Positions 39,984 to 50,875 of a stretch of DNA of 64,000 bases are shown here, in pieces. The notes below the pieces were generated by a model. That model saw only the letters and a program-made list of their open reading frames with translations. It was not told where the DNA came from and made no database searches. This DNA comes from Lachnospiraceae bacterium. Its GTDB lineage: Bacteria > Bacillota > Clostridia > Lachnospirales > Lachnospiraceae. A program made the translations under genes and the position numbers. Location of the stretch: the NCBI GenBank assembly GCA_022774705.1, contig JALFLM010000005.1, positions 26,783 through 90,782 on the forward strand, read 5' to 3'. Numbering within the stretch: the first letter of the stretch is position 1; each line of letters begins with the position of its first letter.

Positions 39984-40007
39984 CGCCTGTTCTCCTCCAT
40001 ATATCTC

Positions 40008-47864: not shown

Positions 47865-48194
47865 AAAAATTCTGCTCCTCACATTATCCTGTAAAAGATA
47901 TCCTTAATCATAAGTTATTATAATCGTATCTTATACTCATCCATCTCTTATATTTACCCCCCGTTTTCCATTTTGTCAACTGCTCTTCACTTAAAGTTCA
48001 CGTCTTAAACAAATATTTTACATTCTTTTCATTTTTCTTAAGAAAGTTTAATTTTTATCGTAAATCTTTTCCACGGGGAAATCTGTGTAAAATCCGCAGA
48101 TAAATTCATGATATATTTCACTTGACCCGGCTTCATTTCCAGCTTATGATGGGTACAGGATTGTAATACATTTTTTATCAACAGGAGGTTTCCT

Positions 48195-50132
48195 ATGTCA
48201 AAAACAGATTACAGCAACGCCCATAAGCTTGCCGTACGTGATTACCGGTTCCGGGTTGCAAAGGGTGAATACCCCTACCTCCCTGTTCTGGATGACATTC
48301 TTCGTTCTACTTCTATTGCAGGTGAAAGCAATCTGGGACTGGTGGACATTCCACTGGATTTCATCGTGGGAACCAGTACCGCCGGTCGTACCAATTCCTT
48401 CTCCAGCAATTTTCTCCCGCTTCTGGAGGAAACTTCTGAATTTGCCTGCAAATGGAGCAGCCTCAGTACCGCACATCTGGAGGAAGGAATCCGCGATCCC
48501 ATCAAGGTTTACGAATTCATGAACCGTTACTATGTGGTGGAAGGCAACAAGCGCGTCAGCGTTCTTAAATATTTCGGTGCCGACAGCATCCATGCCTATG
48601 TGACCCGTATCCTGCCTCAGCGCAACGATTCCCGCGAGAACAGGCTTTATTACGAATATGTGGATTTTTACCGGGATTCCGGTATCAACTATGTGGAATT
48701 TTCAAAGATCGGCAGTTATAAACTTCTGCTGGATAAGATGGGTAAACAGCCCGGTGATATCTGGAGCACAGAGGATAAAATGGATTTCGCTTCCGCCTAT
48801 CATTATTTTGCCAAGCGCTTCCGGGCAAAGGTCAGCAAAAAACTGCCGCTTACACCAGGTGACGGTTTCCTGACCTGTGTAAAGGTTTACGGATATGAAA
48901 AGATGAAGAATGCCACGGAGGATGAGATCAACAAGGTTCTGGAAAAGCTGAAAGAAGAACTGATTGCTTCCGCCATGGATAAACCCATGGAACTGTCCAT
49001 GCAGCCTGTCAATGAGAAAAAAACCGGCCTGACCAAAAAGCTGATCAGCAATATCCTGCCCACCTCCCAGCCGAAGATGAAGGTTGCTTTCATTTACGAC
49101 AAGCGCCCTGATGTCTCCCCCTGGATCTACAGTCATGAGATGGGGCGGATGCATCTGAATGAAGTTATGGGTGACCGGGTGGAAACCACCGCATTCACCT
49201 ATATCAATACGGAAGAGCTTGCGGATAAGGCTCTGCATGGAATTATCGAACAGGGATATACTACCATTTTCGTAATTGCTCCTCAGCTGATCGATTCCTG
49301 TGTGCGGGCGGCCGTGGATTACCCGGAGGTGCGGATCCTCAACTGTTCCCTGAACACCTCCTACCACAGTATCCGTACCTATTATTCCAGGATTCATGAA
49401 GCCAAGTTTCTGACCGGTGTTGTGGCCGGTGCCATGTGCGAAGACGGACGGATCGGTTACCTGGCTGATTACCCTCTGTACGGTGCAATCGCCGGCATCA
49501 ACGCCTTTGCTCAGGGTGCCCGCATGGTCAATCCCCGGGCGAAGATTTATCTGAATTGGACCTGTCTGAAGGATACCGATCCGCTGGCTCTGTTCCGTCA
49601 GGAAAATATCCGCTTCATCTCGGGTCTGGACAATATCAAGCCCCAGAATGCTTCCAGAGAATTCGGACTGTATATGCTGGATGACGATACCCGAGAGAAT
49701 CTGGTGCTTCCTGTATGGCACTGGGGTATTTTCTATGAGCGCCTGATCCGGGAAATTCTGAACGGTACCTGGAAGGAGGAGGAGCCTGCCGAAACTGAAG
49801 TCAGCCGAAAAGCCATCAATTACTGGTGGGGCATGTCAGCCGGTGTCATCGATGTCATCTGCTCCTCCAAAGTACCTGCTGCCACACAACGTATGGTGGA
49901 GATTTTCAAGCACGGTATTATCACCGGCTTCTGCTCCCCTCTGGGCGGCACTATAACCGATCAGAACGGTGTACAGCACGATGGCGGAGCCGGTTTCAGC
50001 CCGGAGGACCTGATGAAGATGAACTGGCTGGCTGACAATATTATCGGATCCATCCCTGAAAACTGGTCCCTGAAGGACGAAAGTGTACCCTTAGTTAAAG
50101 CATCCGGTATTATGAAAAACGACCTGGAATAA
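48195..50132 (+). CDS. Cytosolic fusion: N-terminal ParB/sulfiredoxin-like domain + C-terminal BMP-type periplasmic-binding domain
   Basis: 645-aa ORF without signal peptide; ParB-like GLVDIPLDFIVGT...EEGIRDPIKVYEFMNRYYVVEGNKRVSVLKYFG; BMP-like KMKVAFIYDKRPDVSPWIYSHEMGR...GVVAGAMCEDGRIGYLADYPLYGAIAGINAFAQGARMVNP. Confidence 0.82.
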   Translation: MSKTDYSNAHKLAVRDYRFRVAKGEYPYLPVLDDILRSTSIAGESNLGLVDIPLDFIVGTSTAGRTNSFSSNFLPLLEETSEFACKWSSLSTAHLEEGIRDPIKVYEFMNRYYVVEGNKRVSVLKYFGADSIHAYVTRILPQRNDSRENRLYYEYVDFYRDSGINYVEFSKIGSYKLLLDKMGKQPGDIWSTEDKMDFASAYHYFAKRFRAKVSKKLPLTPGDGFLTCVKVYGYEKMKNATEDEINKVLEKLKEELIASAMDKPMELSMQPVNEKKTGLTKKLISNILPTSQPKMKVAFIYDKRPDVSPWIYSHEMGRMHLNEVMGDRVETTAFTYINTEELADKALHGIIEQGYTTIFVIAPQLIDSCVRAAVDYPEVRILNCSLNTSYHSIRTYYSRIHEAKFLTGVVAGAMCEDGRIGYLADYPLYGAIAGINAFAQGARMVNPRAKIYLNWTCLKDTDPLALFRQENIRFISGLDNIKPQNASREFGLYMLDDDTRENLVLPVWHWGIFYERLIREILNGTWKEEEPAETEVSRKAINYWWGMSAGVIDVICSSKVPAATQRMVEIFKHGIITGFCSPLGGTITDQNGVQHDGGAGFSPEDLMKMNWLADNIIGSIPENWSLKDESVPLVKASGIMKNDLE

Positions 50133-50194
50133 ACCGGTATCTGTTTCCCCCTGAACAGATGCATAAATCCAAAATAATAAATTTTTATAAAATT

Positions 50195-50875
50195 ATGAAT
50201 ATACTTGCTGTTTCTGATAAAGAATCAAAATTCTACTGGGATTTCTATCAGCCCGGTAAACTGGACAATATAGATCTGATCCTTTCCTGCGGCGATCTGC
50301 GGGCGGAATATCTTGATTTCCTGACCACCTTTGCCAAATGTCCGGTGCTTTACGTGCGCGGCAACCACGATACCAGATATGCACGCAGACCGCCTGAAGG
50401 CTCCATCTGTATTGATGACACTATCTACGTGCACAAAGGGGTCCGCATCCTGGGACTTGGCGGTTCCATGCAGTACAACGGCGAACCGCCTTTTCAATAC
50501 ACTAATGCCCAGATGCGCGCCCGTTTCAGGAAGCTGTGGCTTCAGATCAGGCTGTACCGCGGCTTTGATATTCTGCTGACCCACTCCCCCGCTCTGGGGC
50601 TGGGAGACGGCAATGACATGGTCCACCGGGGATTTGAAGTATTTACCCAGATGCTTATGCGCTACCACCCCCGCTACCACCTGTACGGGCATGTCCATTC
50701 CGAATACGGAAACGATTTCGTGCGAAGACAGACCTTTATGAATACGGAAGTAATCAACTGCTACGAAAGATATCTGTTTAATTATGAAACAGGTGAGGAT
50801 ATTTTTTTCAGGGAATCGGACAGTTTTTCCCTTCTGTCCGATTCCCTGGACATCCTGAACGACCTGACCGATTAA
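50195..50875 (+). CDS. Metallophosphoesterase
   Basis: NILAVSDKESKFYWDFY, LILSCGDLRAEYLDFL, YVRGNHDTRY, LTHSPALGLGDGND, YHLYGHVHSEYG. Confidence 0.93.
   Translation: MNILAVSDKESKFYWDFYQPGKLDNIDLILSCGDLRAEYLDFLTTFAKCPVLYVRGNHDTRYARRPPEGSICIDDTIYVHKGVRILGLGGSMQYNGEPPFQYTNAQMRARFRKLWLQIRLYRGFDILLTHSPALGLGDGNDMVHRGFEVFTQMLMRYHPRYHLYGHVHSEYGNDFVRRQTFMNTEVINCYERYLFNYETGEDIFFRESDSFSLLSDSLDILNDLTD

Follow-up and report, generated by a model that had tools for sequence, protein, structure and literature searches.

An apparently cytosolic ParB/sulfiredoxin-fold–BMP fusion protein and its metallophosphoesterase partner in Lachnospiraceae

The locus described here raises the question of what a protein that joins a ParB/sulfiredoxin-like N-terminal part to a BMP-type ligand-binding domain could be doing, and whether the gene that follows it, encoding a metallophosphoesterase (MPE), belongs to the same function. 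The fusion gene lies in the window, that is, the whole 64,000-nucleotide stretch of Lachnospiraceae DNA that was analysed, and an earlier sequence-only reading had proposed it as a candidate undescribed intracellular ligand sensor. The features of the locus are as follows.

48122–48150, + strand: promoter-like TTGACC-17-TATGAT, a consensus match only, as promoter-like sites in the region do not exceed those in shuffled sequences
48183–48189, + strand: strong Shine-Dalgarno sequence AGGAGGT, 5 nt ahead of ATG 48195
48195–50132, + strand: fusion gene, a single ORF of 645 aa with full-length homologues
48315–48617, + strand: ParB/sulfiredoxin-fold domain, residues ~41–141 (AF2, Foldseek, profile match to 6ky4)
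48387–48389, + strand: Arg65, the Box I-region arginine, invariant (76/76)
48540–48554, + strand: P-motif EGNKR, residues 116–120, with G117 and R120 in 76/76 and position 116 always acidic (E or D)
48618–48980, + strand: helical domain, residues ~142–262, with conserved E154 and F158
49065–50060, + strand: BMP/PnrA-like ligand-binding domain of the AtzT/3s99 type, residues 291–622
50159–50875, + strand: MPE partner, an ORF of 238 aa whose homologues begin at ORF residue 13, so that ATG 50195 is probably the true start

The presence of a ParB-like/BMP fusion ORF was confirmed. The fusion is not an assembly accident, because it recurs in 113 of 299 Lachnospiraceae genomes (38%, at E ≤ 1e-60), sampled at nearly one per genus, and in other families of the class Clostridia. 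It was also found in a clostridial MAG, in a Spirochaetota MAG and in a Collinsella record (Actinomycetota), where it is labelled 'BMP family ABC transporter substrate-binding protein'. A weak match without MPE (G821, L097/L150) was left out. The distribution among genera is patchy. A phage origin was considered for one further copy and rejected, since the 'Bacteriophage sp.' record MT836456 (L166) is an UNVERIFIED, unannotated 10-kb faecal scaffold bearing both the fusion and the MPE; this scaffold (MT836456.1) is most simply, and probably, bacterial DNA. Around the fusion gene in the window, Pfam identified a CmpB-like membrane protein (upstream, on the other strand), the MPE and aroE, and no known RNA or riboswitch was found by Rfam at the gathering threshold between positions 40000 and 58000.

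The protein had been described as carrying neither signal peptide nor lipobox, and this held in all 66 fusions analysed, which are free of lipoboxes and of hydrophobic N-termini. The maximal 17-residue hydropathy within their first 60 residues has a median of 0.96 (range 0.19–1.61); in 23 BMP lipoproteins given the same treatment the median is 2.55. The missing export signal suggests that the fusion protein is probably cytosolic. The BMP fold and the database label would fit an exported lipoprotein that binds nucleosides for an ABC transporter, but this explanation appears extremely improbable given the lack of export signals in the 66 fusions, the ~285 N-terminal residues that form a folded module of NTP-binding type, and the fact that no adjoining nucleoside-importer ABC permease or ATPase was identified in the window.

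The nature of this N-terminal module was approached by profile and structure comparisons. The N-terminal part alone gave zero Pfam or NCBIfam matches, and in scans of the whole window protein Pfam detected the BMP domain only and NCBIfam nothing. The ParB-like family PF02195 remained below its cut-off in the individually checked proteins and matched nine of 76 members at E ≤ 0.1. A profile built from the 76 relatives recovered sulfiredoxin (6ky4) as its top match (E = 3.6e-4) and ParB/Spo0J weakly. An AF2 model of residues 1–285 (pLDDT 91.8) matched Noc, KorB, ParB, PadC, sulfiredoxin, SerK and SbnI in Foldseek, with Noc (E 6e-5), KorB and ParB as the top matches. Superposition of the single domain was better, with a Foldseek target TM of 0.64 for sulfiredoxin 6ky4, and the best local superposition was that on SbnI (rmsd 2.4–2.5 Å over 91 columns, 21–22% identity), whereas the long ParB matches to the whole N-terminus gave low global TM values (0.2–0.3 by Foldseek), probably reflecting differing domain placement; the helical domain is therefore not explained by these matches. 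Taken together, the profile, the AF2 model and the Foldseek matches indicate that the ParB/sulfiredoxin-like assignment made from the sequence was right, and structure prediction, which had been named as the check that might refute it, returned this fold with residues ~41–141 confidently predicted. A 202-aa protein of Bacillus phage G, gp57 (L167:2917-3525), also has a predicted structure similar to that of the N-terminal module (Foldseek E 4e-9); a dUTPase-like gene, not an MPE, comes next to it.

Similarity of fold could suggest a ParB-like nuclease or chromosome-partition protein. We consider this very unlikely and a partition function not supported, as the locus has no ParA gene, Pfam recognised no HTH or C-terminal dimerisation domain, either in the window protein or among the 76 members, and Box I and Box III lack their canonical letters.

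The module does possess the ParB-CTPase fold with its GxxR P-motif, and G117, R120 and R65 are invariant in all 76 N-terminal domains. Position 116 is occupied by E in every fusion and by D in every relative that lacks the BMP domain (see below). Comparison of the window motif (EGNKR) with those of SerK (DGHHR), ParB (AGERR) and sulfiredoxin (SGCHR) places an acidic residue before GxxR in the fusions and SerK, and none in ParB and sulfiredoxin. Sulfiredoxin, which shares the fold and was the first profile match, is a single-domain protein, and its motif cysteine is absent from the fusion because EGNKR replaces SGCHR. The suggested search for ParB CTP-binding motifs had a divided outcome: GxxR and the Box I arginine are kept, but the canonical letters NPxQPR (Box I) and ENxQR (Box III) are not, R65 and E154 alone standing at equivalent places. 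Since the canonical boxes are only partly present, CTP cannot be assumed. Binding of an NTP by the N-terminal module appears likely from its conserved residues, and a 2025 survey of the ParB fold (PMC12704722) used the R→A exchange in GxxR as its negative control when NTP binding was measured. As neither sequence nor AlphaFold3 allowed that survey to predict whether CTP, ATP or GTP is bound, no particular nucleotide is claimed here.

Between residues 59 and 75, the Box I region, the fusions have no conserved acid, and the BMP-less relatives have D at columns 68 and 70. The free serine kinases SerK and SbnI resemble the fusions in their ParB/Srx fold and in the acid-G-x-x-R arrangement (the motif having been compared with SerK), and differ in having no BMP domain and other C-terminal parts. 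For the catalytic glutamate of SerK, Glu30, no clear equivalent is seen in the fusions, which leaves phosphotransfer by them a hypothesis.

The C-terminal half had been said to resemble BMP-family proteins, and this was borne out by Pfam (PF02608, 52.5 bits versus a cut-off of 24.1), by sequence matches in the PDB (3s99, E = 2.4e-30; AtzT, 6pi5, E = 2.3e-27) and by Foldseek (3s99, E = 9.9e-23, target TM 0.78, Foldseek range 0.78–0.80); the model of the full-length fusion has a pLDDT of 91.2. The 3s99 protein and AtzT are the closest solved relatives of this domain and, unlike what is predicted for the fusion, are exported. In AtzT, guanine is contacted by Y45, S97, F98 (backbone), E165, W194, N218 and N220 (PMC6834077). 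The corresponding pocket of the window protein is W310/A362/P363/G430/K459/G477/D479, in which E165 is replaced by G430, W194 by K459 and F98 by P363. BMP lipoproteins of the same phylum have a near-uniform W-S-F-E-W-H-D pocket. Among the fusions, one clade (clade B, for example the L084 locus) mostly has W-S-P-[DE]-W-H-N and mostly keeps the purine contacts, whereas the clade of the window protein mostly has W-[ST]-P-G-K-G-D, the window protein itself having W-A-P-G-K-G-D. The tree of N-terminal domains splits these two pocket clades and places L010 and L096 close to its base; the purine-type clade comprises L078, L079, L083–L087, L090, L093, L094 and L009, and its MPE genes are convergent with the fusion.

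A purine ligand is not supported for the window protein, because the AtzT purine contacts have been rewritten in its clade. The suggestion of a nucleoside- or purine-responsive protein is thus doubtful for the window protein, although the contacts are mostly kept in the sister fusion clade. An ancestral purine-type pocket whose ligand changed in the clade of the window protein is provisionally the likely history, and the lysine at K459 would match a ligand that is acidic or phosphorylated; this view of the pocket is provisional because the alignment around K459 is gapped.

The strongest evidence in the locus is the MPE. Pfam agreed with the earlier identification of the next gene as a metallophosphoesterase, and a search of the same 299 genomes gave 114 MPE-positive genomes, namely the 113 with the fusion and one (G463) in which an MPE fragment without fusion runs off the contig end on the side where the fusion is expected. 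The fusion thus never occurs without an MPE among the 299 genomes (Fisher p = 2e-83, ignoring relatedness). The two genes adjoin in 107 of the 113 genomes, as compared by hand from coordinates; in G428 they are separated by 3.6 kb, and in G411, G442, G490 (at a contig edge), G507 and G634 they lie on different contigs. Gene calling with neighbour clustering placed the MPE cluster beside the fusion in 54 of 59 loci, the next commonest cluster reaching 10 of 59, and tblastn raised adjacency to 58 of 60 loci. In Collinsella the MPE also adjoins the fusion, with a 4-nt overlap. Second copies of the fusion without adjacent MPE were found at L161 (G685) and L162 (G524).

Three arrangements were observed: the fusion followed by the MPE on the same strand (the branch of the window), the two genes running towards each other (convergent; seen chiefly in one other family and also at L009, L010, L121 and L122), and the MPE followed by a BMP-less relative (L139–L149). 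Antisense MPE ORFs from the first gene calling were resolved by tblastn into true convergence in one branch and, at a few loci such as L102, L007 and L124, into antisense ORFs that had masked a same-strand MPE. Both the uneven occurrence across genera and the existence of three arrangements suggest that function keeps the pair together. Conservation of the neighbourhood, which had been proposed as a check for both the MPE and aroE, is found for the MPE; the aroE cluster (c17) is present in only four of 59 loci, the window and its closest loci, and any link with aroE, CmpB-like or TPR neighbours is limited to the closest relatives of the window.

Residues D20, D46, N69, H70, H142, H178 and H180 of the metal-binding motifs are invariant in 58 MPEs, and motif I reads D-x-E in 49 of 58 instead of the usual D-x-H, the motif I histidine being absent. 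Judged from these residues, the MPE is likely an active but modified phosphoesterase. Its closest solved relative by sequence is MPPED2 (E = 2.1e-6), from which it differs in the glutamate found two residues after the motif I aspartate where D-x-H is usual. A PADLOC scan also gave a nearly full-length match of the MPE to the candidate PDC-S10 (E = 2.4e-20); of two control MPEs from the same genome, scanned over the Pfam-matched part only, one gave 7e-7 over 43 residues and the other no match. This match and the patchy occurrence among genera (38%) could point to a module for defence against phage or stress, in which the MPE would be the effector. Such a role is possible but improbable, as PDC-S10 is itself a candidate system, the fusion gave only weak PADLOC matches (E at least 0.0097), no defence neighbourhood was seen around the pair, and the chromosomal settings are stable, after rpoC in one family and beside rplA-rplK-nusG-secE in Collinsella, which speaks for a household function.

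Further information on the unit that is conserved came from 11 phylum-level (Bacillota) relatives that carry module residues ~40–200 without the BMP domain (30–39% identity, E 1e-11 to 1e-14). These relatives (L139–L149, for example L146:5885-6895 and L147:5859-6782) are encoded directly downstream of an MPE. They end in a short Cys-rich tail, identified by Pfam as 4Fe-4S ferredoxin-like in L145, L146 and L147 and degenerate, with cysteines missing, in the L139 group. Their helical region matches PF13224 (DUF4032, model ~79–160), one of them above the Pfam cut-off; the window protein itself has no match to this family, and no paper mentioning DUF4032 was found in the literature searched. The module occurring without BMP yet beside an MPE indicates that the conserved unit consists of the NTP-fold module and the MPE, and that the domain at the C-terminus can be exchanged. 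In the BMP-less loci the pair is followed by a gene for an endonuclease III-like or a Sir2-like protein, depending on the group (L139:4687-5319, L146:6891-7571).

While the architecture and the MPE partnership are well supported, the biochemistry and the ligand are what we infer from them. The explanation that we put forward, to which we give about an even chance, is a two-gene cytosolic switch composed of a ligand-gated ParB/Srx-fold NTP-binding protein and a dedicated MPE. The BMP domain would derive from an AtzT-type purine-binding lipoprotein after loss of the export signal and would bind an intracellular small molecule, and control would run from closure of the BMP domain to the N-terminal ParB/Srx-fold domain. 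The latter would bind a nucleotide via [DE]-G-N-x-R and either transfer phosphate or act as an NTP-dependent switch, and the adjoining MPE, as dedicated partner, would strip the phosphate or be a gated hydrolase. Sulfiredoxin, SerK and SbnI, which have the same fold, transfer phosphate, and by analogy a dedicated MPE would be well placed to catalyse the opposite reaction.

The main rival, on account of the lack of a conserved Box I-region acid in the fusions, is a non-catalytic clamp or switch that gates the MPE; here the ParB-fold domain would bind CTP, ATP or GTP without phosphotransfer, and the MPE would be a nuclease or phosphodiesterase effector triggered by the ligand. ParB-fold proteins are often NTP switches, with a precedent in the archaeal ParB-CBS fusions treated in the survey (PMC12704722), and Noc, KorB and ParB lead the Foldseek matches. 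The lack of a recognised HTH or C-terminal dimerisation domain counts against this alternative, and both the acid that precedes GxxR and the match with the best local superposition favour the SerK/SbnI side; we rate it as possible, on the unlikely side. Tentatively, and with rather low probability, the ligand-gated switch could instead be part of a modular system in which a ParB/Srx-fold kinase writes and the MPE erases a phosphate on a target, with the exchangeable C-terminal sensor as input. Under this equally tentative extension the sensor may be a former transport protein in one branch and an iron-sulfur domain in another.

The ParB-BMP combination had been proposed as a candidate for something undescribed, and no paper reporting it was found in the literature searched. 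The nearest described idea is that of the archaeal ParB-CTPase-CBS fusions, which, according to the survey, are chromosomal and assumed to link nucleotide binding with the metabolic state (PMC12704722). They likewise join a ParB fold to a small-ligand-binding domain, but they carry CBS instead of BMP, are archaeal and have no reported MPE partner. The survey presents the ParB fold as a versatile NTP-binding module and based its search on PF02195; its main text mentions no BMP, phosphoesterase, DUF4032 or ferredoxin.

In conclusion, the pair is present in more than one third of the sampled genomes of Lachnospiraceae, a major gut family, and in the one annotated copy examined the fusion is named as a transporter component. 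The strict co-occurrence of the MPE makes it a testable partner and a route to the substrate. In gut bacteria the pair has the look of a signalling switch that has not been described before. Should it prove to be a ligand-gated NTP switch, the ParB fold would gain a sensor-coupled branch, in a group missed by PF02195, the model with which the survey searched.
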